From Antedon mediterranea (taxonomy: Eukaryota; Echinodermata; Crinoidea; Comatulida; Antedonidae): a DNA stretch of 64,000 nucleotides. The first letter of the stretch is position 1. Each line of letters begins with the position of its first letter. The DNA lies in the NCBI RefSeq assembly GCF_964355755.1, contig NC_092674.1:29128001-29192000 (forward strand). Reading direction: 5' to 3'. Positions 21,364 to 49,385 of the stretch are shown here, in pieces. The translations under genes and the position numbers were made by a program. Under the pieces are notes generated by a model. It searched no databases and was not told the origin of the DNA. It saw only the letters and a program-made list of their open reading frames with translations.

Positions 21364-24300
21364 ATGAGCACTGCGACGGAACGCAAGTTTACAAACTTGC
21401 GAAAGCGGCTGGACCAACTCGGCTATAGACAAGCTTTGGGAATAGAAACACTTCCGTTGGTTGAAAAGCTTTTTAATGACCTGATACACACAACTGAGAG
21501 TCTAAAGAAATCTAAACTACAGGTAACTATAGCTGTAATATTACAATTCAATTTATTGTTTTTGAACATTCATATAACTTATAAATAATTTTAGCTCTGT
21601 CTACACTATTAAAGATTATGTCACAAAAAATGTGATGTGCTCATGGACATGATGTCATATCACTACCTTATTTGAGCATATCACTACCATATTTGGGCAC
21701 ATCACACTTTTTTGTCAAACTAGTTCAATAGTGTAGACAAAGCTTTATAATATTGATATGACCTAGGTTCACAGGGTATAAAATTAGGTGATTTTAAACA
21801 GAAAAAAAAATATCACCATATTAACTATAATAAAGGCTATCCCATACTCATACCTCTTCATTTTTGCTGAACATAAACTTGGTATAATAAGAGGCCTATT
21901 TGAAACTGTTGAAAATATGCTTGAAAGAAATTTGTCATAGATTCTTGGTTAAAATGTATAAAGTTGCATGTTATCTGGGTATTATTACATGCTGGACATG
22001 TGTAATCCATAATTGATGATGTTATGGTCCACCTGTTCTGTCAACTGGAATAAATGTGATTATGTTAATTAGATACTATACCCATGATGTCACATTATTC
22101 CCTTGTAGAGGGCAGTATACTATTTTCCATACTTTAGAATTCAATTCAATTCAAGGAACATTTATTCACGTCCAAAAGACGTGAATAATTACTACAGTAG
22201 TATTTTGTTTTCAATTTTTTCTAAAACTCTGTCTACACAAAAAAATTGATATGGACATGATGATGTCATATCACTACCATATTTGGGCACATCACACTGT
22301 TTTTGTCAAACTATTTTGATAGTGTAGACAGAGCCTAAAGCTATAAAATATATAAATTAGAGTATAGTGAATTTCAAAGTTGTTTTTAGAGTTCAACTTT
22401 GTATACTTAATGTTTTAAAAAAGGGTTAAAGTTTTTTTTTTATTAAAAATAATCATATTCTTGCAGGCTAGCCAAGTAATCCACGAGAAAGGCACATGGG
22501 AAGAACAGATCGAGCCTTACCGGAGTGACAATGCGAAGCTAGTCAAAGAAAACAACGACCTGCATCTCCAGCTAATCAAAGTCCGGGAGGATCTAGACTC
22601 CACCAGCAAGAGCCTAAAGTCATCAATTCGCAAACTTGAGCATGAAAACGCAGATCTGCGCTTCCTCAATACTCAATACGTTCATAAAGTGCGCACCGTT
22701 GAGAAAGAGTCAAAGCAGAAGTCTGACAGAATCGCACAGTTGCAGGAGAAAAACTTCAAAGCGGTTGTTCAAACACCAGGTAAATATTTGTTAAAAACTA
22801 TAATTACTAATAATTAATATTCAAATATAATATTCATAATTATATTAAAGATATATTGTCCTGAAAACATTATTTATTCACTTCGAAAGTGAAAGTGGTT
22901 GAATTTAACCATTTATTTTGTCTTTTTATAAATGAAAACATTGTTTTTTAAAGTTTTATGCAAGTGATTAACTTTATTAAAACTTTGAAATCATATGGCC
23001 TATTCAAGGTCTTTTCATGTTTTTACCAGTATAATTAGTCAACAAATGTTATTTTTTACATCTGTTTTTTTTTGTTAAATTGCAATTAAACATTTTTTAT
23101 TTTTATAATTGATTCATTTGTTTTCATGAAAACTTTTTCTTTGACTACAGGTGGAAGAAAAAAAAACATCCCATTTAGACGACAGCGAATGGACATTGAT
23201 TCTACAGTACTGCCTTCACACGATACACGTACCCCCTCTGTTCCTGCTGTACTTGATCCGTATGTTGCTGATCTTTTACAAGTTGCAGATGCTAAAATTG
23301 AGGATCTGCAAAGGGAGGTGGAACAATTACGGGAATTGAATGAATCATATGAAAAGGCAATTCGTAGTTTGCGAAAACAGGTGTGTTTTTGTGGTTTCTT
23401 TTTATTATTTATCATTTTTTGAATAGCAAACACGAAATGTACAGATCAATGCAAAATAATTAACTATATATTTTTTTTATTTGATAATATAACTTTATAA
23501 AAAATGACCGTGGAGGAAATATATAGATATTGCCTCCATATTCTAACATAATATAAAATGTTTATAAAAACATTAAAAAATAATTAAATTGATAAATAAA
23601 AATTCTAGTTTTCCTGACCGCATAATAATAGTATTATCACATTATATCTTGCAAATTCATAAATGCACAATAAATAATAAAACACTTCAGTTGAGTAATA
23701 TATTTATTACATTTATTCATACTTAGTATCATTTCATTTGGGAAACCACCTCACAAAAGGTAAAAAGCTTAAATACTACATTTTAATTATAGGTATTTTT
23801 ACAGGTCCTTAATTACCCTAGTAGATTCAGAAGAGAAAAAAATCTACCTAGATTAGCAATGTGGTCTGGATTAATACCGTAAAAATAATTTATGTATTTC
23901 ATATTAACATACAAATGTAAATAATTATCATTTTGAAGATATGATTACATTTAGACACCCCTATACTGATAATGGATTATCCTAGCGATGGTTGCCAAGT
24001 ACGCTACATGTGGATCGGATTACCTTTTATAGGCAATGACCTTTGATACTTTAGAATTCCTTTAAAGCTATTGGTTGACAGAGAAGTGTTACTTGTTTGT
24101 GATTGGTTAATAATTTGCATACAAACACTCCATTGATAAAGTAATCAATTATCTATCTATTTGAATGAAGTCCCACAATCAGTTTATGATAGGCTGAGTT
24201 TTTTGAAATGTTAATGAACTTGCTACCTCCAGTTAGCTTTTGAAATTGTTTAGTCTAACTAAATATTGTGGTATTTGAATACCTTTGTGGATAGCTTACT

Positions 24301-27300
24301 TTGTGAATGCTAGGCCGCTGGGGATAACTAGCTTACTGGCTTACCTTGGATCTTCCTATGTACCTGATCTTTTTAGTGCATTTATTTATATCAACATTTA
24401 TTGTGTAATGTACACTCTGGATAAACTATATTAAAATGAACCGAGGAATATATAGTAAAGGTAGACGTTCCAGATCTAAAACTGGGGTAAGTTATTAATA
24501 TTATTCATAGGATTTATGTTGTCTATATATAGGGCTGTGTGTGAATATTAAAAAACACAAATATAAAGGTTAATTAGGGAGACCTCATTTAATAGCAAAT
24601 ACCTGACTCTACTGTATGTTACAATCTCTTGGATAGAAGATACTTCACAACAATCTCTTACTGTACACCCCTCCCCCCAAATTGATCCACAAAAAAAAAT
24701 AAAATTACTTTACTGCTAGGGCAAATAAAAATCTATTAAACTGGATACCATTTTTTTATAATCAAACTCAAATAGCTGTCTGCCTGTAGTAAATAAATTA
24801 ATCAAATCATTTCATATGCTACAGTATAGTTATGAATGATAGCACATTTTACAACACTGTACAGTAGTGGATTTAATGACAACACTGACTATTCCAAAGG
24901 TCAATTATTGTTTTATTATGAACCCTTAACAGTAGAGTTTGTACTTGAGTAAACTCCTTAATTCTATTTGAATAGCATTCACTCTTCTTAGTCATTTTAT
25001 AATATACTGATCAAGTATTCTCATTCTGTATTTAATCAGTGGCTTTGAATCACAGAAAGGGGTTTCCTCATTAGGCCCAGCTAGCCCTTCCCAGCTCCCA
25101 CCTAAATTTTCTAAAATTATAATGCAAAATATAGGAAATTTTTTAGGTTAAGTTGAGCTTCGGCTATATCTTGGCTACCTTTTGTATTGAAATTGTTTTT
25201 GTTTGATACAATTAAGAAGAAGTAAAGTAATACCAACTTCATATCACCATTTTTAGGCCTTGGCCTCCTATTTAAAAAACCAGACCCGTCTCTGGCTTCA
25301 GTGTTAAAAAATACATTTCCCCATTAATAGGTGTATCCCCTGAATAGGTGTATCCCCTGAATAGGTGTATCCCCTGAATAGGTGTGTCCCCTGAATAGGT
25401 GTGTCCCCTGAATAGGTGTGTCCCCTGAATAGGTGTGTCCCCTGAATAGGTGTGTCCCCTGAATAGGTGTGTCCCCTGAATAGGTGTGTCCCCTGAATAG
25501 GTGTGTCCCCTGAATAGGTGTGTCCCCTGAATAGGTGTGTCCCCTGAATAGGTGTCTCACTTAAATAGGTGTGTCCCCTGAATAGGTGTCTCACTTAAAT
25601 AGGTGTGTCTCTTCGAATAGAGGTGTACCAAGAGAGTGTTCTACTGTATAACAGTATAATAGTTTATACTGTACCTTAAACCTTTACTAACACCCTTAAA
25701 ATAGGTCAAGTGGTAAATGTGAATTGGCCACATTTTTCTAGAATGACTTAAACACAATGGTACTCATTATTACCAGATACTATTGCTCATGTTCCCTATT
25801 GTTGTGTATGCTAAGTGTGAATATAATTGAAAGCATTGTTTTGTATCCTAATTGTACTTTGAATGGTGTCTAGTTACCCTGGGTCTGCTGGGCTGGTTTC
25901 TAACTTGAATAATAAGAGGATTTAAATGATTTATGAACAGGATCACTGAAGTGTGAGAAAGTAGATGACGAGTCAGTCATAATTGATTTGATAACTTTCT
26001 AAAGACAGCTGATGAAAATAAATATCATATGACATTATTATTCAATATCATGTTTTTTGTAAAAAATATAGTGCAATAATAATTCAGGCAGTACAGGTCA
26101 TTCATTAATAAATGGTATATTTACAAGAATCATCAGTAAAACTATGGATAGTCCTATAAATTAGAAACTGAATTGTGATACATTTTTACATGGATCATAA
26201 TTTACAACAATGTATTAACTAGGTCACAAGATAAACAAAAACATTGTCCCTGTATTCATAAGTAAAAAAGTTAAAGATAACATTAAGAAAGTCGAAAAGA
26301 AACCAACTATTATAAGTCAACAATGTGTTGTATATAAATTTAAATGTGACTTGTGTGATGCAAGTTATGTTGGATATACATGCCGACACCTCCACCAACA
26401 CATTGTTGAACATAGTAGATGTTTAATAGGACAGCATTTAAAGGATCACAACGTGATTGTATTAAAAAAGTTTGAAAAAACTGACAATAAAACAGGGAAA
26501 AAACCCAATTCAAATAGATGACAGGCAAATTCAAGTTGATAGACCTGTAGACCGGTCATACAATTGGAATGTATTTTCTTTCTTTCTTTCTTTATTCAAT
26601 TTTTCACACTTCAAAAAAAATACAAGTTATATCTACTGTTACTGTACAGTATATACCAGTAACCATATTCACCAATCACACTAAAGTAAGATATTTCTCT
26701 TCTTAATATTAGGTATTTCACTTAACTCAATACAAAAAACATGCATACAAAAAGTACACTGCGAAGGCCAACAAATCATAAAATGCTTTATGGACATTAA
26801 TTAATCAATTTACCAACTTTATTACCTCTATGGCATTTGTAGTATATTTATTAATTGGTATATACTTCTCCATTTATGGCATAATAATATTGTAATTAAT
26901 AGTAATTAAACAATATTTTTTAATAATGTGAAATTTTTTCATTATTCTACGCAGTTCAACTGTACTTTTGTATTGCCTTAGGCTTTTTATATTAAAAACA
27001 AAAAACTTCTTTTTTATTTTAAAATAATATCGTTTCATAGAATTGTTTTGTTTAATTATGACTAAAAATTACCATTACTGCAGCTGCTCACTACTGTACA
27101 TTGTTGCTATCACCTTATTTGATGGTATTATTAATATTAATTGAAATTTAGACACTTTTCAATATACTGTTACTACTATAACAGTATCTGTACTTTGCAT
27201 TGCTTATAATAGGCTCCAGTCTTTATATTATAATTAACCTTATTTTATTTTAAAATATATTAAAACATTTGTTTTTGTATAAAATAAACTAAAATAGTAG

Positions 27301-30300
27301 TAGCTATGTAATTCAATGCACACTTGAATTTGTACTGTAGTACATCACAATATAAAACATAACATTATTGTTATGCATTTATTTATGGATTTTGTTTCAA
27401 TCTATGGTCGTTCAATTGTTTGATTAATGGCATCATATTTCTCGTTGTACAAACTGGTTGTACAAACTTCTAATGGAAACTTTTCTATTACCAATAGGCA
27501 AATCAATATCACTATTTAATACTTAATAATTCAGGGTTCTCGCCCCGGTGGGCGTCGATGGTCGGCCCCGTCCACCACTCGGAATTTCCTACCACCACTT
27601 TCATGGAGCCGACCACCACTGTATTTACACATGTAGATCGTAGCTATTATTAATTTTGCACACCTTGTTACCGCACAAAAAGAAAATCGTAGGGTTTTTT
27701 ACGAATTTCTTTTTTTCCCGACCTCATTATGAAATACGTGGGCTGGCGGAGTAGTCGCCTTTTTTTGTGGGGGGGGGGGGGGGTTGTCGGGTCGCCGACC
27801 ACTACTCATGACATGCTGGTGAGAACCCTGATCAGTGATAATAATAATATACAGTAATATTAATTCATACTTTATTGTGAATGTGAATAGTTTACTGTGC
27901 AATAATGATTATAATGTATTGTATTCTTTGAAAATGAAACATACAGTATAAATGTACAGTAGATGCTGGAGACCTACTTCAATTTCATATTATTTCTCTT
28001 TAAATACTAATGGGGAGGAGAAATGAAAGCATAACTTATACAGTAAGGAATAGGCTCCTCAAAACCAAAAATATGAAATATAAATAATATTACAAAAAAA
28101 ACATTTGCAAAGGTACTGTGTGTAAAAACGAACGTAGTAAGCAAATTCCATTTATTAATACAAGGCTGTTAGTTATTTATGAATTAACACATTACTTACA
28201 GTCTCATATCTAATATATAATTTATGGTTTATGCTTTAGAGTGACTATATGTTTAGTACAGTTGTTCTTTTCTAAATTTATTTTTCTTTGTTCTAATAGT
28301 AATACTGTGCAACATCTTTGAAATCTGATATACTGTATATATTATATTCTTAATAATAATTACTGTATATTCTTTTTCTATTTTATTTACTATTTTATAG
28401 GTTGATACTCGTGATCAGGAGATAGGTCGGCTTGGGCGGCAGCTTGAGGGCGGGAGGCCGTATGATGTCGTTTCCATGGAAGCAAAAAACAAAGGAAATG
28501 ACCGATTGGTGTCTCATCTGAACATTCAGGTAAAATATCTTTTTTTAGAGTTATTGTTGAATGTACTACTAGCAATGGTACTTTGTTTTATAATAAATCG
28601 TAAATTACCTTTGAAATTAATCATTCATTTATGAACTTCCAGAGAAAAAACTGTTTAAATTAAATTCTGCAAACAAATATTTGTCTGGTAGGCCCTATTC
28701 TTACTGTATCTGCCCACCACAGGTATAAACATTTTTTTTTTAGACTGTATAAACATTTTTTTATTTTTGTTATATTCCAGATTGACTACCTGCAAGAGGC
28801 GAACCGTGATCTGGAGAAGCGTTTGAAAGAGGCTCTTCTCAACAGAGAAGATGCTGTCACCACAGTTGATGAACTGGGTCTTAAGAACCAGGAACTGGTT
28901 GCAGAACTGCAAGACATTGATCGTCTAACCAAACGACTGCAAACTGACAAAGATGTGGCAATTGCGGCAGCCGATCAAGATGTCTCCGAGGCTAAGGTTG
29001 AACTGAGGCACACGATACATGAGTTAGAATCAGTGGAGTTGGAAATGAACCAGATGAGACAGGTATGATGTACAGTATACTCTTGAAGTTTAAACTTGGC
29101 TGTAAGAAAGGACTTTTATTCAGCTTCTAAAGTAGTACTTTAGTAGTTGGACCATTAAAACATATTTTAAATACAACAGTTGTGGAAAACCATGCGTATT
29201 AGTCCAGGCCTGACAGTGTTTGAGAGTTGACTATTATAGAATCCAATTTAATAAATAATTTTTTAGGAGCGGAAAAATATTTTGGCTGATGTCGAGCAGT
29301 TGACGAGGGAGCAGCAAATCAAAGATGCAGAGTTGAACGACCTCAGAGAGATGATGCACAAAGTACAAGAAGACAAGAGGAAGCTTAGCGATCGAGTCAA
29401 CAAACTCACATCAAATGGTGAGGTCAAAGTTTAATTTTTGTTGTGTCATAAGATGTTTTGGCCTACTCTGACTTTGTACTGTGAACTCAGTGCATTGAGA
29501 ACACCTTGAGGGGAACTTACTTTAATCATACTCTGACTTTGTACTGTGAACTCAGTGCATTGAGAACATCTTGAGCGGAACTTACTTTAATCAGTTGTTA
29601 TATGTTGTATATGTTGTATATGTTATTATTGAATTATCTTAAGAAAAATTAAGTATTGTTCATTGTTTTTCATTCATATTATACAGAACATTTCCTAACC
29701 TAAAGTGATTAGTGGAATTTCCTTTACATGACATAGTTCTATGTTTTATCTATCTGCATTAATTGACTTTGCATGAGTGTTGTGGTAAACAAAACCCATT
29801 GTCAATGGAAAATGAATGGCCAAGTTAATTACAAGTACATCACAATATGATCGTTGGTCCATTATATTAGTTTAGTCGTTATGATTCCTACAACAATAAC
29901 AAACCTCAGCGAAGCACGTTATTGTTTATTGGATTATTAAAGAGCATGTCGTTACAATCGTATGTCCCATGTCTTTATATTGTTGCACTTGTAAAAATGT
30001 ATATTAAATAATAATAGCAGCGCCACAAACCAATCTACCTTGAATGTAAAACCGTAACAAAATAAATATTTACTAAAATATGTACCATCCAACCAAAAGT
30101 AAACGCATTAAAAAACATTCAACCAAAATAAACAAAGATAAAGAGCATAAAGAAGGCATAACAACTAATTAATACACATTGTAATGTTTGAATAGTGGTT
30201 TGTTTCAAATATAATTGTTTTGTTGGTTTGTCCTATTTCCTTTGTGTGTAAAAAGCAACAATATCGCCGTAGTTTTGCTCAGTACAAATAGTACAGTAGT

Positions 30301-33300
30301 TACTTTAAATACACTTTTTTCTCGCACTGTCCCTTTAACCATTCTTCATTATTGATCTGTATTATTTGTTTAGTTAAATTAAGTTTTGAAAAATAATTTT
30401 CTTTAGCAATTATCACGCACATGAATTAAAATACAGGCACGTATATTACATTAAATTTACAATGCATTGTTGTCTTTTGTCTCCTTCACCGGAGCATACA
30501 TTGTCATCTTTTGTCTTCTTCACCGGCGCATGTAAAATGTTTATTGATCTCAGTTTATTTAAATTACTTGAAATCAGGCTAGAAGTACCTACTGCTTTTT
30601 TTCACACAGATACCTTTTGTTATTTTACAATCGTTGATTGTTCAAAGTCTGCCTAAAAATAGCAAGAAAACCAGAGCAATATCTGACTTTACTATAGTAA
30701 TAACTGCTTAATTTGTGATTAGAATTTTTGTGTATCAACATGTATTCACCATCGTTGTGTTCTTCCTTAGAACGAGAGCTCGTCCTGGAATTGGAGCGTC
30801 TTAGAACAAAAGGCAGCAAAGGACGGCGCGATAAATCGCCGACGAAGATGGATAGTTATATTAAAACGATTGAAGAAGAAAGAGATTACTTGAAAGGTGA
30901 AGTGGACATCTTGAATAAACTTATGAAGAACAAGTCTGTGTTATCAAGCCCTAGTAACAGCCCGCTGCGTAGTAGGTCAAGTAGCCCGTCAAAATCTGCT
31001 GCCCTAAAGGTAATTTTTAAATTTTACTAGTTGGTGAGAATGGTGGAATTGATTAGCATAAATTTACCATACAATTCGTAACTCTACTTGATAATAATGA
31101 TTTATAATTAAATTTATATAATAAGAATATTTTTTTGTTTGTGTTACAGTCGTCACATCTAGAGACAACCATCAAAGTACTTGAAGACGAGAGAGATTTT
31201 TACAAAAAAGAGTATGAGATTATGAAATCCATCAGAACTAAGAGTGGAAGTCCAAGCAAAATACGAACACCGCCAGTTAGAGAAAAGGTATGAAAATTAT
31301 TTATAAAGAAAAAAAACATTTTTTTGTTAAATATTGAAAGATATATTGTCTCCCTGAAAGTTTTTGTTTCTTCGTTGAATATGTCATTTTAAGGTCGCAA
31401 AATAGACCAAAAACTGGATGGGAAAAAAAATTATTTACCTGAAAAAATGTAATTTAACCATTTATTTTGACTTTTTATATGTGAAATGGTTATTTTTTTT
31501 GTTTTTTTTTCTATAGAAGTGAATAACTTTATTAAAACTGCAAAATGGCCTATTAAAAGTCTGATTTTATTAATCTTCATTTTTTATGTTTTGGGAGACA
31601 ATACATCTTTAAAGTGTTTGTATTTATTTGTGAACATTTTTTTACAGAATAATTTTGATGAAACTGAGATATTTAGGTTGAGAAGAGAACGAGACGAACT
31701 GCAAACAGTTCTGGATAAATTTGAAAGACATCTTGCCGAGGTAAGTAAATATTTGTAATACGACCTACCTGTAAATAATTTAGTGGCTTTTTTTCCCATT
31801 ATGTACCCCTTTTTTTAATGCAACATCAACATCATCACATCAGTAAGGCCCCTATTATTGGTGTTCCCTTAATTTCTGGTTTCTTTAGTTTGAAACATAA
31901 TATATTGCCCCACTAAAAGTGTCCCCTAAATAGAGGTGTTTACTAAATAGGGGTGTCTCAAAGGAGGGGTTCTTGTGGTGTAAATATTATCATCTTTACA
32001 AAGACTACAAAGACTACAAACACTGTTATAATAAATAATAACACTGTTAATTTATGCTTTGTTATTTTTCCATTTTTACTTAAATAGATTCAGAGTAATG
32101 TCAAAGTGTTAACAGCTGACAGAGACAAAACTAAACTGCTCTATGAACAGGTATGATTTATTAATAAACAATAATAATGATAAATAAAATTATCTCAATA
32201 TTTCCTTCACCCTTCTTCTTCCCTCAGAGTATTTCCTGCACCCTTCTTCTTCCCTCAGAGTATTTCCTGCACCCTTCTTCTTCCCTCAGTATTTCCTGCA
32301 CCCTTCTTCTTCCCTCAGAGTATTTCCTGCACCCTTCTTCTTCCCTCAGAGTATTTCCTGCACCCTTCTTCTTCCCTCAGAGTATTTCCTGCACCCTTCT
32401 TCTTCCCTCAGAGTATTTCCTGCACCCTTCTTCTTCCCTCAGAGTATTTCCTGCACCCTTCTTCTTCCCTAAAAGTATTTCCTGCACCCTTCTTCTTCCC
32501 TCAGTATTTCCTGCACCCTTCTTCTTCCCTAAGAGTATTTCCTGCACCCTTCTTCTTCCCTCAGAGTATTTCCTTCACCCTTCTTCTTCCCTCAGAGTAT
32601 TTCCTGCACCCTTCTTCTTCCCTCAGAGTATTTCCTGCACCCTTCTTCTTCCCTAAGAGTATTTCCTGCACCCTTCTTCTTCCCTCAGAGTATTTCCTTC
32701 ACCCTTCTTCTTCCCTCAGAGTATTTCCTTCACCCTTCTTCTTCCCTCAGAGTATTTCCTGCACCCTTCTTCTTCCCTCAGAGTATTTCCTGCACCCTTC
32801 TTCTTCCCTAAGAGTATTTCCTGCACCCATCTTCTTCCCTCAGAGTACTTCCTGCACCCTTCTTCTTCCCTCAGAGTATTCCCTGCACCCTTCTTCTTCC
32901 CTCAGAGTATTTCCTTCACCCTTCTTCTTCCCTCAGAGTATTTCCTTCACCCTTCTTCTTCCCTCAGAGTATTTCCTGCACCCTTCTTCTTCCCTCAGAG
33001 TATTTCCTTCACCCTTCTTCTTCCCTCAGAGTATTTCCTTCACCCTTCTTCTTCCCTCAGAGTATTTCCTGCACCCTTCTTCTTCCCTCAGAGTATTTCC
33101 TTCACCCTTCTTCTTCCCTCAGAGTATTTCCTTCACCCTTCTTCTTCCCTCAGAGTATTTCCTGCACCCTTCTTCTTCCCTCAGAGTATTTCTTCCCTCA
33201 GAGTATTTCCTGCACCCTTCTTCTTCCCTCAGAGTATTCCCTGCACCCTTCTTCTTCCCTCAGAGTATTCCCTGCACCCTTCTTCTTCCCTCAGAGTATT

Positions 33301-36300
33301 TCCTGCACCCTTCTTCTTCCCTCACAGTATTTCCTTCACCCTTCTTCTTCCCTCAGAGTATTTCCTGCACCCTTCTTCTTCCCTCAGAGTATTCCCTGCA
33401 CCCTTCTTCTTCCCTCAGAGTATTCTCTGCACCCTTCTTCTTCCCTCAGAGTATTTCCTTCACCCTTCTTCTTCCCTCAGAGTATTTCCTGCACCCTTCT
33501 TCTTCCCTCAGAGTATTCCCTGCACCCTTCTTCTTCCCTCACAGTATTCCCTGCACCCTTCTTCTTCCCTCAGAGTATTTCCTGCACCCTTCTTCTTCCC
33601 TCACAGTATTTCCTTCACCCTTCTTCTTCCCTCAGAGTATTTCCTGCACCCTTCTTCTTCCCTCAGAGTATTCCCTGCACCCTTCTTCTTCCCTCACAGT
33701 ATTCCCTGCACCCTTCTTCTTCCCTCAGAGTAGTTCCTGCACCCTTCTTCTTCCCTCACAGTATTTCCTGCACCCTTCTTCTTCCCTCAGAGTATTTCCT
33801 GCACCCTTCTTCTTCCCTCAGAGTATTTCCTGCACCCTTCTTCTTCCCTCAGAGTATTTCCTGCACCCTTCTTCTTCCCTCACAGTATTTCCTGCACCCT
33901 TCTTCTTCCCTCAGAGTATTTCCTGCACCCTTCTTCTTCCCTCAGAGTATTCCCTGCACCCTTCTTCTTCCCTCAGAGTATTTCCTGCACCCTTCTTCTT
34001 CCCTCAGAGTATTCCCTGCACCCTTCTTCTTCCCTCAGAGTATTTCCTGCACCCTTCTTCTTCCCTCAGAGTATTTCCTGCACCCTTCTTCTTCCCTCAG
34101 AGTATTTCCTGCACCCTTCTTCTTCCCTCAGAGTATTTCCTGCACCCTTCTTCTTCCCTCAGAGTATTTCCTGCACCCTTCTTCTTCCCTCAGAGTATTT
34201 CCTGCACCCTTCTTCTTCCCTCAGAGTATTTCCTGCACCCTTCTTCTTCCCTCAGAGTATTTCCTGCACCCTTCTTCTTCCCTCAGAGTATTTCCTGCAC
34301 CCTTCTTCTTCCCTCAGAGTATTTCCTGCACCCTTCTTCTTCCCTCAGAGTATTTCCTGCACCCTTCTTCTTCCCTCAGAGTATTTCCTGCACCCTTCTT
34401 CTTCCCTCAGAGTATTCTCCGCACCCTTCTTCTTCCCTCAGAGTATTTCCTGCACCCTTCTTCTTCCCTCAGAGTATTTCCTGCACCCTTCTTCTTCCCT
34501 CAGAGTATTTCCTGCACCCTTCTTCTTCCCTCAGAGTATTTCCTGCACCCTTCTTCTTCCCTCAGAGTATTTCCTGCACCCTTCTTCTTCCCTCAGAGTA
34601 TTTCCTGCACCCTTCTTCTTCCCTCAGAGTATTTCCTGCACCCTTCTTCTTCCCTCAGAGTATTTCCTGCACCCTTCTTTCTCCGTCAGTTATTTTTCTG
34701 CACCTTTCCTCTCTCAAAGTCACAATGAAAGCACAGTTTCTATTTGAAGACTCTATTTTATGCTACATACACGTTTTTAAATCGTATCAAATAATAATTT
34801 ATTTATTTTCAGGCAAATGATGAGTTACAAAGATTGAGAATAGAGTTGGTGAAGTCACCTAAAGCATCGAGGTCGTCTATTGCAGCACAGTCCATTTTAA
34901 AACGTGTAGAAATTGAAAGAGATACAGCAATATCTGATTCAAGAAGAATGACGACTGAGAGGGATAGTCTGCGGGAAAGGTTAAAGGTCAGTCAACTTGC
35001 ACAGTACAGAATGTTGTTTCTTGTTTTGTTTTTTTCTGTGATTGCAGAATCTAGTATTCTTTATTGAATGATTTCACTGTGCAAAATATGAAATTTTAAA
35101 GTAGTCAACAATTTTGCCAATTATTGAGCATGCCCAAATGTTTGTCATGCTCTATTGCTTCTATCTTTGCTCTGTCTACACTATAAAAACTTTATGTGAC
35201 AAAAAAATGTGATATGGACATGATAGTAGGGCGGCCAATGTGTGCTTTTTCATCATGGGGGGCATTTTCTGTTAATAGCAGGCAACCATGTGGAATATAT
35301 CCCTTATGGGATGACAAAAAAGATAGGGGTGGATGCCGCTCTCAAATTTCAGGTCAAAGGTCATTTTCAAGGTTATAAGGTCAAATATGGTAAAATAGAG
35401 GTTTAAGCTGTTTTCAACAACATATAAGCTAATTAAAAGAAATGTAACCATTATTGGATCATTATTGACATATTGCTGCAGATGGTGAAGTTCATCAATT
35501 TTTCAACTTACAAGTTTAAAGGTCATTTTCAAGGTCATAAGAAAAAATAGAGCACAGACCTGTTAATTATCGGTATTAATAATTGAAATAAATATAATTT
35601 TCATGATAGCCTTTGGCTGATGGTTATAGTGTGGTGTCAAAAAGACCAGAATTGTACTGGGAAGATTTTAAACTTTTTGAGTCACTCCTGGAAGGTGTTC
35701 AAGGAATGGAGAGGATGAGTCCTAGAGTATCAAAATAACCGAAATTGGAGGCCCACTGGAATGTCTTAAATTTCATTTAAAAACGGTCACAGAGGATTTG
35801 TGGGTTGGGAGTAATGGGCGGCATGGGCACATGCCAATATTCAAAATTTGTCTGGGATGGAAGGAGGTAACGCTCTGAGGTGGGTATTTCTTCAAGCACT
35901 GATATATAATGCCTACTGGCCATCTGGGTAACGGCAAACGATTGAATCACAACCACATATGCATGCTTTCTGTAACAACTTCATCTGGCTCTTTAGTTTA
36001 CATACACATGTAACAAGTTCCAAACTGACAACTGGGTTAGGGGCTTCCAAACGACCCGATTCATTTAGGCCACATACTGATCTCTGCCTGATAGTTGGCT
36101 CGTATGTTTAGGTTCTATGATATCTGTATTCACCATAGGTGAGTTTTTTTAATTTTAAGTGTTTCCCGAAGTAGAAATACAGGTACTTAAATATTTATTG
36201 AGTGAAGTGAAATACTTAATATTTAAGGGAAATATATATCACTAGGGTTAATGGTATATGGTCACTGAGTCTAGATGGAGGTAGCACCAAAGAGTAGTCT

Positions 36301-39300: not shown

Positions 39301-42300
39301 TTAAATTTAACTTATTTCAGGCGGATCAGGACAGGACGTCCTTACAAACTCGTGTAAACTCAATGAGGAATATGATCAACACATTAGAAGACCAAGTTAA
39401 AGCTCAGTCACTGAGAATGGAAGAAACAAACGACGAGGCATCTCAACAACGAGCGACAGCAACACAAATGAGGTATAAACAGGTTTTATAGTGGTTTAAG
39501 TTAAGCTGGGTAGAATGAGGCATATAGAGGTTTTATTAGGCTTAAGTTAAACTGAGTAGAATATATCTAGAGATTTTATAACATATTTCAATTAAGCTTG
39601 GTAGAATGCATAATGTTTTTGTAAATTGTATTTTATATTTTTGTATTTTGCCAGTTTTCAAATCACATTTCTGTGAATAAAGTATATATGACTATGACTA
39701 TGACTAATCAAGAAATAGTATTTGACTTAAAGTTAGCTGGTTTGAAGAGGTTTTATAGCTTCAAATCAATTATATTGTAATATTTATTTCATTAAAAGTA
39801 ATACAAAAATGCAATGATTTATAGAAGCCGAATGTTGTCTTAAAGATAACATATTATGCATATATAAAACACACTTGGTTTAAGTTTGATATTAAAACAC
39901 AGCAAGATTATGGTGGTTACATACTGGAGGTGATGACAAAGAACGGATACATGAGTGGTAATTAATTTACCAACTGAATTCAAAACACATCTGATCCATA
40001 ACCATAATGTTTAAAGTATGTACTTTTAGTATAATGGTAACTACTCACATTGGGTGCATTTCAGATTAGTAGCAGAGCATGCAGAACAAACAGTAGGAGA
40101 TCATCAACGTAAACTTGTACAGAAACATGGAGAATTGAATGAAGCCCTTACTGTAAGAAATAGACTAGAAGAAAGAGTTAGTAAGTAAAAATACTTGAAA
40201 CACTCAATAATACAAGTAATTGTGGAAATAAACCCTAAAGCTCTGTCTACACTATCAAACTAGTGTGATGTACCCAAATATGGTAGTGATATACCCAAAT
40301 ATGGTCACATCACATTTTTTTGTCACATAAAGTTTGATAGTGTGGACAGAGCTTAAGCTTTTGTGCAACAAAACACCTCATTAGCATAGATTATGTATTT
40401 TATATGAACACATTGTTTTGAATTACAGATGATTTGAACAAAAACAATGCAATGCTAAGAGATGAGATTAACACATTGAGAATGACCATTGGCAAGGTAG
40501 ATCGTGACAAGGACAGTTTACAGATGACCGTTGATGAAAAGACGGAGAAGGTGGTCAGTTTTGAACGAGAGGTAGATGAAAAAAACAAGTTTCTCAGTGA
40601 GCTTAAAATGACTATTGGAGATTTAGAGGCAAGGCTAGAGTAAGTGTTGACGGCATTTTCATTTATGCCAACTGCATCATCACCATCAATATTAGCGACC
40701 TCATCAGAAACCGACTTCATCTACATTATCACTTTACATATTTACGATTAAAGGCAACCTCTTATATAAAGATGCTCTCCAGTCTTGTTTATTTTTAATT
40801 CGATTATTTGTAATTTTACTTTTGAAAGATTCTGAAATAAAAGATGGCTCCTTTTTTTTATTTTACAGTAAATTAAATGATGATTTATCGAGTCGTGATC
40901 GTGAAGTTCGAAGTTTACGACGGCAGTTGGATGGAACAAAAGACGAGTTGTCAAACATTAACCATGGGCGTGATGAAGCTGTTGGTGATAATCGACGTTT
41001 GCAAGATGATCTGTCCACAATGACCAGAGAAAACCAGGTATGTTTGTCAGAGATTGATGGTCTGTCTACCTTGCAATCTAAAGTCCTGTGTTCCATTCTT
41101 GCACTGGTGCTGTACCAGAGGTCATCATCAAAGAAGTGCTTTCTAATGAAACTTAATGTTACTCTGGACCTTTATTAAATTAGTAAATTACTGCATTATT
41201 GGTTTGAAGTGTATTTCCGAGTAATCGTATATATCCTCTGGTACAATCCCACCCCATTAGAACACAAAATTGGGCTTACTTTGGGGGTGGGACTAAACAC
41301 GGGAAAACCCTGGTTCAGGACAAAAATGATTGGTAAGCATTTCTTGTAAAAACTCATCTGAACTGGATAGAGAGAGGCCTACATTCAGACCAATACTAGG
41401 ACTATACCGAGGGATATGCCTGTAAAATCAGACATAAAGTAAGAGATGGGATTAGACCTGAGGATACACAAATGAACCTTACCATGTCTGTTTTTTTAAA
41501 TTTTAGGCAATAAATGTAGAACTAGAGGAAGCTATCAATGAAAGGGAGTCTGTAAAAGCACAAATACAAGATTACATATCAGAGGTGTCAAGGATGGAAG
41601 ACTTATTAGCAGCCAAGGTAGGACTTTAAAAGAAAGAGACATATTAATTCAATCATCAGTGGATGACTTCCATTTATTGTCATTTGCATATAACATATAC
41701 ATAGGAATTATGTTCGCACCTTTCAATATCTCTCTAGCCATTCGGATATTTTAGGAAGTTTTTTAGACTAATTTCACAACAAGGTTATCATAAATTCAGT
41801 AATTAGAGGGTGCCCATGCCTTTGACAGGAGACGGCTAGTGTTAATATGCAGATAAAGCATTTGCTACCAACAAAATTATCTTATATCTGAAAATTAATG
41901 TATAAAAAAGAAAATGATTCAATTTGTTATTTAGGAGCGTGAGAATGCAGAACTTCTAAACAACTATCGTGCAGTATCCACAGAAGCTCATCATTGGGAA
42001 AGCGAGGCAGCGCAGCAAGCTGACGAAACTACCAATGCTAAAGTAGAGTTGCTAACGAAACAAACGGAATTACAGAGGGTTGCTGACAGGATACACATGT
42101 TAGAATTAGAATTACAAGAGGTATGTAAAATTATGTTATAATAATGTTGATTGTAGAATAGAAATATTAACATATGGCTGAGCGGTTAAGGCATGGGCGA
42201 TGTGTATTGTACCTAAAGAGCCAACAATATCGGCATGGGTTCGAGGCCGACTCGCTCTTAGATCTGGTGGTTAAACAAGTATTCTCAGATAAGGACTATA

Positions 42301-46689: not shown

Positions 46690-49385
46690 ATTTTCAGAAA
46701 ATAGCAAAATTTCGACCCTTTTATTTTTTGACATAACTAGTTACTGTGGCTCTATAATATGTTTATAACACAATATATGCGCATATATGGCAATATTATC
46801 GCATAATTATTGAATTTTAAAAAGTAGATATTTTTATTCATTTTTCGAAAAAATCCATGTACTATAGTACAGGGAAATTTTCGAAAAATGACCAAATTTC
46901 GACCCCTTTATTTTTTGCCATAACTAGTTACTATGGCTCTATAATATGTTTATAACACAATATATGGCAATATTATCGCATAATTGAATTTTAAAAAGTG
47001 GATATTTCGGTCATTTTTCTGGAAAAAAAAACCATGCACAATTGACATGCGCAGAACGCATTATTTGACTCTGTGCATGTTTATTATGCTATAGTAACCA
47101 TTTATGTGAAAAAATAAAAGGGTCGAAAATCGGCCATTTTTGAAAATTTTCCTGTACTATAGTACAGGGAATTTTTCCAAAAAATGGCCAATTTCCGACC
47201 ATTTTATTTTTCGATAAAACTGGTTACTATAGCACAATTGACATGCGCAGAACGCATTATTCGACTCTGCCCATGTTTATTATGCTATTGTAACCATTTA
47301 TGTCAAAAGTGGTTACTATAACACAATTGACATGTGCAGAACGCATTATTCGACTCTGCGCATGTTTATTATGCTATAGTAACCATTTATGTCAAAAGTG
47401 GTTACTATAGCACAATTGACATGCGCAGAACCCATTATTCGACTCTGCGCATGTTTATTATGCTATAGTAACCATTTATGTCAAAAGTGGTTATTATAGC
47501 ACAATTGACATGCGCATTCGACTCTGCGCATGTTTATTATGCTATAGTAACCATTTATGTCAAAAAATAAAGGGTCGAAAATCGGCCATTTTTAAAAATT
47601 TCCCTGTACTATAGTACAGGGATGATTTTTTCAAAAAAATGGCCAATTTTCGACCTTTTTATTTTTCGATAAAACTGGTTACTATAGCACAATTGACATG
47701 CGCAGAACCCATTATTCGACTCTGCGCATGTTTATTATGCTATAGTAACCATTTATGTCAAAGTGGTTACTATAGCACAATTGACATGCGCAGAACCAGT
47801 TATTTGACTCTGCGCATGTTTATTATGCTATAGTAACCATTTATGTCAAAAGTGGTTATTATAGCACAATTGACATGCGCAGAACCCATTATTCGACTCT
47901 GCGCATGTTTATTATGCTATAGTAACCATTTATGTCAAAAAATAAAAGGGTCGAAAATCGGCCATTTTTTAAAATTTCCCTGTACTATAGTACAGGGATG
48001 ATTTTTTCAAAAAAATGGCCAATTTTCGACCTTTTTATTTTTCGATAAAACTGGTTACTATAGCACAATTGACATGCGCAGAACCCATTATTCGACTCTG
48101 CGCATGTTTATTATGCTATAGTAATCATTTATGTCAAAAAATAAAAGGGTCGAAAATCGGCCATTTTTGAAAATTTCCCTGTACTATAGTACAGGAATTT
48201 TTTCAACAAAATTGCCAATTTTCAACCTTTTTATTTTTCGATAAAACTGGTTACTATAGCACAATTGACATGCGCAGAACCCATTATTCGACTCTGCGCA
48301 TGTTTATTATGCTATAGTAACCATTTATGTCAAAGTGGTTACTATAGCACAATTGACATGCGCAGAACCAGTTATTTGACTCTGCGCATGTTTATTATGC
48401 TATAGTAACCATTTATGTCAAAAGTGGTTATTATAGCACAATTGACATGCGCAGAACCCATTATTCGACTCTGCGCATGTTTATTATGCTATAGTAACCA
48501 TTTATGTCAAAAAATAAAAGGGTCGAAAATCGGCCATTTTTAAAAATTTCCCTGTACTAAAGTACAGGGATGATTTTTTCAAAAAAATGGCCAATTTTCG
48601 ACCTTTTTATTTTTCGATTAAACTGGTTACTATAGCACAATTGACATGCGCAGAACCAGTTATTCAACTCTGCGCATGTTTATTATGCTATAGTAACCAT
48701 TTATGTCAAAGTGGTTACTATAGCACAATTGACATGCGCAGAACCAGTTATTCGACTCTGCGCATGTTTATTATGCTAAGTAACCATTTATGTCAAAGTG
48801 GTTACTATAGCACAATTGACATGCGCAGAACCCATTATTCGACTCTGCGCATGTTTATTATGCTATAGTAACCATTTATGTCAAAAGTGGTTACTATAGC
48901 ACAATTGACATGCGCAGAACCAGTTATTCGACTCTGCGCATGTTTATTATGCTAAGTAACCATTTATGTCAAAGTGGTTACTATAGCACAATTGACATGC
49001 GCAGAACCCATTATTCGACTCTGCGCATGTTTATTATGCTATAGTAACCATTTATGTCAAAAGTGGTTACTATAGCACAATTGACATGCGCAGAACCGAT
49101 TATTCGACTCTGCGCATGTTTATTATGCTATAGTAACCATTTATGTCAAAAAATAAAAGGGTCGAAAATCGGCCATTTTTGAAAATTTCCCTGTACTATA
49201 GTACAGGGAAATTTTCGAAAAATGCCAAAAATTTCGACCCCTTTATTTTTTGCCATAACTAGTTACTATGGCTCTATAATATGTTTATAACACAATATAT
49301 GCGCATATATGGCAATATTATCGCATAATTAAACAATTTTTAAAAAGTGGATATTTTGGCCATTTTTCGACCCTTTTATTTGTAA
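46690..49385. repeat. Palindromic satellite-like block between CEP135 and SLC6-A
   Basis: About 18 units of roughly 88 bp, each itself an imperfect palindrome: GGTTACTATAGCACAATTG and ACATGCGCAGAA on one side, TCTGCGCATG and TGCTATAGTAACC on the other. Groups of one to four units are separated by spacers containing CCCTGTACTATAGTACAGGG (a 20-bp palindrome) and AAAAGGGTCGAAAATCGGCC with its inverse. The block is bounded by direct repeats (about 46700-47000 and 49205-49385) with ATAACTAGTTACT, GGCTCTATAATATGTTTATA and TATGGCAATATTATCGCATA. Looks like a foldback element whose core amplified in tandem. Confidence 0.9.

Follow-up and report, generated by a model that had tools for sequence, protein, structure and literature searches.

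Can the splicing machinery reach the true acceptor of an intron when some 80 tandem copies of a sequence that resembles a 3′ splice site lie in front of it, and does such an array need a special cause? This question is raised by an intron of CEP135 in the crinoid Antedon mediterranea, which lies in the window that we analysed (64,000 nucleotides; positions given without a contig name refer to it). The gene is identified by its N-terminal exons, which match the CEP135 structure 7bji (E = 3.5e-33). We conclude that the array is very probably an ordinary minisatellite, locally expanded, neutral and confined to a single intronic locus. The features of the intron are listed below; slashes in sequences mark splice borders.

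32088 to 32150, plus strand: CEP135 coding exon upstream of the array, 63 nt, phase 0-0, an open frame of 21 residues with AG/GT borders and the donor CAG/GTATGA
32151 to 34812, plus strand: CEP135 intron of 2,662 nt, 94% of it array (about 150 nt without the array)
32199 to 34712, plus strand: 31-bp tandem array of 81 units or part units, consensus TATTTCCTGCACCCTTCTTCTTCCCTCAGAG (Tandem Repeats Finder and decomposition)
33790 to 34660, plus strand: nearly homogeneous right third of the array (string of unit types, pure consensus runs of 12 and 7)
34661 to 34712, plus strand: degenerate terminal units of the array (sequence and decomposition)
34793 to 34812, plus strand: true acceptor AATAATTTATTTATTTTCAG, 13.7 bits by the own-genome matrix
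34813 to 34986, plus strand: CEP135 coding exon downstream of the array, 174 nt, phase 0-0, an open frame with AG/GT borders

The initial annotation had placed the array between coding exons at 32088 to 32150 and 34813 to 34986. Both exons are right, and the intron between them begins with GT and ends with AG. Both are also frame-preserving, and 100 nt separate the end of the array from the downstream acceptor. Further along the gene (39321 to 40640), the CEP135 exon that starts at 39321 could not be joined in frame to the exon near 40429; a small exon may sit between them.

Tandem Repeats Finder reports the 31-bp array with 96% matches, and decomposition gives 77 units of 31 bp, two of 29 bp and one 17-bp partial unit, with a degenerate right end. 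The array holds 80 candidate acceptor AGs, 66 of which read exactly CACCCTTCTTCTTCCCTCAG/AGT. The original description of about 80 tandem 31-bp units, each with a pyrimidine tract and an AG (mostly CAG), is borne out, and so is the near uniformity of the right end: units 61 to 70 are consensus units without exception, and the two longest pure runs comprise 12 and 7 units. This suggests that the right third was recently homogenised or expanded. In the middle of the array the variants are mixed, and some short-range periodicity shows up at a lag of five units; together with the uniform right third, this is the pattern expected from stepwise local duplication.

Is the unit found anywhere else? 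The exact 16-mer CTTCTTCTTCCCTCAG occurs 68 times, always inside the array, and was not found elsewhere in the 354-Mb assembly, where matches in assembly gaps could be missed. A 28-mer of the unit, allowed up to three mismatches, is found at 77 places, all of them in the array, with no dispersed relatives in the same 354-Mb assembly. Many head-to-tail copies of a unit in the range of about 10 to 100 bp, present at a single locus, identify a minisatellite and not a dispersed element. There is no Rfam match between 31000 and 36000, and the array RNA folds no better than shuffled sequences (z = 1.4), that is, it is not unusually structured. Within the unit, the AG varies freely, with 10 of 77 units altered at unit positions 27 or 29. 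The pyrimidine core has one variant among about ten (scan statistic, p = 0.06 to 0.15, post hoc), and this low variation may be read as a weak, post hoc hint of constraint.

Minisatellites are common around the array. Another CEP135 intron (about 23380 to 28401) holds a 17-bp array (AATAGGTGTGTCCCCTG, approximately 17 copies) at 25326 to 25609, with low acceptor-like scores. A GC-richer, degenerate 20-bp minisatellite (TTCCGTCTTTGCATTGCGGC) with higher-order periods of 78 to 158 bp lies at 1703 to 2621. At 47216 to 49151, a tandem unit of 88 to 89 bp contains long inverted repeats (TGGTTACTATAGCA ... TGCTATAGTAACCA) and shows a higher-order period of 376 bp; this array looks like tandemised palindromic elements.

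Are the units good acceptors? The initial annotation had counted about 80 good acceptors that match the metazoan consensus. This verdict depends on the model, since a mammalian-type matrix rates the unit as strong, and a matrix of the genome's own acceptors rates it as mediocre. The mammalian-type matrix is an approximate one, drawn up from general knowledge, and gives C almost the weight of T; by it, the unit scores 12.4 and the true acceptor 9.2. Only one of 709 other intronic AGs reaches the unit score by this approximate matrix; the comparison loci used for background scores are biased to genic DNA and one repeated myosin family. To this extent the claim holds, but it is weak by the own-genome matrix. 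The latter was built from 37 introns (16 from CEP135 and 21 from CCT chaperonin and myosin genes) and leaves out the acceptor of the array-bearing intron itself. The CCT and myosin introns were located by profile matches and reading-frame continuity, and the look of the acceptor was not used beyond the AG. By this matrix, which is coarse at only 37 introns, the unit scores 4.8 bits versus 13.7 bits for the true acceptor. It stands at the 30th percentile of genuine acceptors, and 8.5% of the other intronic AGs in CEP135 score as high or higher.

Base composition points the same way. Genuine acceptors in this genome are U-rich: at positions -20 to -5 they have 59% T and 12% C, versus 38% T and 12% C further upstream in the intron, a strong enrichment of T (p about 1E-14) with none of C (p = 0.93). 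The 16-nt tract of the unit contains nine Cs, while the 37 genuine tracts contain 0 to 6 (median 2). The triplet TTT is found in 78% of the genuine tracts and is missing from the unit. By the signals that this genome uses, the units are predicted to be mediocre acceptors. This does not deny binding of U2AF, and human U2AF65 binds cytidine-containing tracts (PMC3629564).

How does this load of decoys compare with that of other introns? At the 25th-percentile threshold, the decoy density is 28.6/kb in the array versus 4.5/kb in the other CEP135 introns, about six-fold. The 5-kb intron at 23380 to 28401 alone holds 23 AGs of such quality, some of them far stronger (up to 11.8 bits), and single decoys in other CEP135 introns reach 12.9 bits. 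The load of the array differs in degree, not in kind. The branch-point motif yUnAy is missing within the AG-exclusion zone in 67 of the 80 units. Genuine introns, however, carry the motif no more often (81%) than shuffles do (82%), and it is missing at the true acceptor of the array-bearing intron as well; we therefore set this test aside. The AG-exclusion zone itself (27 to 29 nt in the units) lies within the genuine range of 15 to 60 nt or more and is not discriminating.

A separate observation concerns myosin. On contig C3, myosin-head exons (profile positions 342 to 408 and 563 to 629) occur in more than 20 copies along approximately 5.5 Mb (C3:19614624-25122537), and several of them have a common 49-bp minisatellite nearby. 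We read them as a myosin gene, or a fragment of one, that was amplified specifically in this lineage.

On the donor side, the donor-like GTs of nearly all units score at most 0.29 bits, whereas genuine donors have a minimum of 3.1 bits and a median of 8.9 bits. A single array GT scores above the weakest genuine donor:

32475 to 32476, plus strand: donor-like GT in the context AAA/GTATTT, 3.9 bits

Because the donor-like sites are so poor, cassette exons within the array are unlikely, and the rare cryptic exons proposed in the initial annotation find no convincing donors. Nor is the consensus unit a ratchet point, i.e., a recursive splice site in which AG is directly followed by a usable GT: in CAG/AGTATTT an A separates the AG from the GT, and the donor score is 0.29 bits. 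The unit has no stop codons in any of the three sense frames, and an open frame of 878 codons runs from 32184 to 34820. One might read this frame as a sign that the array is itself translated, or that it supplies rare cryptic exons after all. We consider either highly improbable. As a coding signal the frame is explained by the stop-free unit, and it enters the next exon out of frame. The upstream exon, when joined to any in-array CAG without a further donor, runs into a premature stop in every case, and the poor donors speak against the cryptic exons as well.

Could the array nevertheless act on splicing? A side effect through binding of PTB or U2AF is possible. In OGT intron 4, decoy exons promote intron retention, and blocking the decoy 5′ site restores splicing (PMC12017769). 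The CEP135 intron likewise holds 3′ splice-site-like sequences, probably unused, and its array might serve as a reservoir of decoy 3′ splice sites, binding U2AF and slowing or reducing splicing of the intron, so that CEP135 output falls. The approximately 80 pyrimidine-tract AGs, six-fold denser than in other CEP135 introns, would fit such a role, as would the strong score of the unit by the approximate mammalian-type matrix. The binding of C-containing tracts by human U2AF65 (PMC3629564) is in its favor as well. However, the own-genome score of 4.8 bits is a mediocre one, and known decoy exons carry both sites (PMC12017769), whereas the array has many short copies in place of one exon-sized decoy and no credible 5′ splice site downstream of its acceptors (approximately 0.3 bits or less, with the one exception at 3.9 bits). 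A decoy role of this kind is therefore quite unlikely. Antisense Alu elements provide another comparison, as their cryptic 3′ splice sites are held down by hnRNP C (PMC3629564). Here too, repeat-borne tracts could attract U2AF65; unlike the Alus, the CEP135 array is tandem and locus-specific, its tracts are interrupted by C and have no continuous U runs, and no transposable element is involved.

Bulk binding of a PTB-like protein is the strongest functional alternative, though still a quite unlikely one. The motif used for PTBP1 is YUCUYY/YYUCUY, and PNCTR, a PTBP1-binding repeat RNA, has 2,178 such motifs (PMC6224606). The CEP135 array is similarly dense in tandem motifs of this type (322 overlapping, 83 non-overlapping), the non-overlapping ones amounting to 33/kb versus 3.4/kb in other CEP135 introns, a ten-fold difference. 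Unlike PNCTR, it lies within a pre-mRNA intron and has approximately 320 overlapping motifs compared with 2,178. A protein bound in this way might repress the 174-nt or the 63-nt flanking exon, with array length tuning the degree of skipping. It would suit this proposal that the array stops 100 nt short of the downstream acceptor, that the flanking exons are frame-preserving, that the array RNA is not unusually structured and that the genome encodes a PTB-type RRM_8 domain fragment. The motif enrichment, however, is a direct result of repeating one CUUCUUCUUC stretch: the motif is present once per seed unit and has been multiplied by the expansion itself. A length-tunable rheostat can also be imagined, in which longer alleles would bind more PTB or U2AF, so that the intron would more often be retained or the 174-nt exon skipped; we regard this, too, as quite improbable.

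Does an acceptor-like array need a special cause at all? The genome has tandem arrays with TTTCAG or CCTCAG in their units at many places. TTTCAG triplets number 1,615 versus 2,875 for the reversed control pattern, and CCTCAG triplets 730 (the CEP135 array contributing to this number) versus 323; a single array can enter these counts with many overlapping matches. When random 31-mers from the window are tandemised, approximately 21% score as well as the unit on one strand or the other. Given the similar arrays elsewhere and this share of random 31-mers, no special cause is needed. On contig C1, a 22-bp tandem array on the minus strand (C1:38261601-38262112, unit TTTCAGTCTCCCATTATTTTCA) has an acceptor-like site of 9.1 bits by the own-genome matrix, higher than in the CEP135 array. 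Another array on C1, of 31-bp units (C1:18250612-18250741, unit TTTCAGGTATGGAATGCCAATTGACATGTTG), has an AG directly followed by GTATGG, with a donor score of 8.6 bits and an acceptor score of 3.8 bits; if intronic, it would be a tandem array of ratchet-like AG/GT sites.

The ordinary minisatellite accounts best for what we observe. Like known intronic minisatellites (VNTRs), the CEP135 array sits in a single intron, has near-identical head-to-tail units of 31 bp and changes in homogeneity along its length; unlike them, it repeats a unit that happens to look like a 3′ splice site in the sense direction, and its length is taken from one assembly. In its favor we count the anatomy, the homogeneity gradient, the lack of another copy, the score gap, the C-rich tract, the poor donors, the varying AG, the similar arrays elsewhere, the share of random 31-mers that score as well and the many minisatellites nearby. 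Counted against it are the mammalian-type score, the binding of C-containing tracts by U2AF65, the enrichment of PTB-type motifs and the hint of constraint in the core. Most likely, a pyrimidine-rich stretch of about 30 bp was duplicated inside a short CEP135 intron (approximately 150 nt without the array) and then expanded to some 80 copies through unequal exchange or replication slippage, the right third being homogenised last, and the outcome is neutral. Since the transcript has the sequence of the pyrimidine-rich strand, and CTCAG closes the unit, each copy resembles a 3′ splice site. Most likely, the spliceosome passes over the copies for three reasons: their tracts are rich in C, where the acceptors of this genome are rich in U; the real acceptor is much stronger; and the copies have no usable donor behind them.

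These results carry a caution: splice sites should be judged by the organism's own consensus, as a unit that looks strong to a mammalian-type matrix is mediocre against the U-rich acceptors of this crinoid. If the rheostat proposal were true, the array would offer a natural titration series for the number of decoy acceptors that the spliceosome can ignore. If the array is neutral, it is a further example of introns tolerating arrays of splice-site-like sequence.
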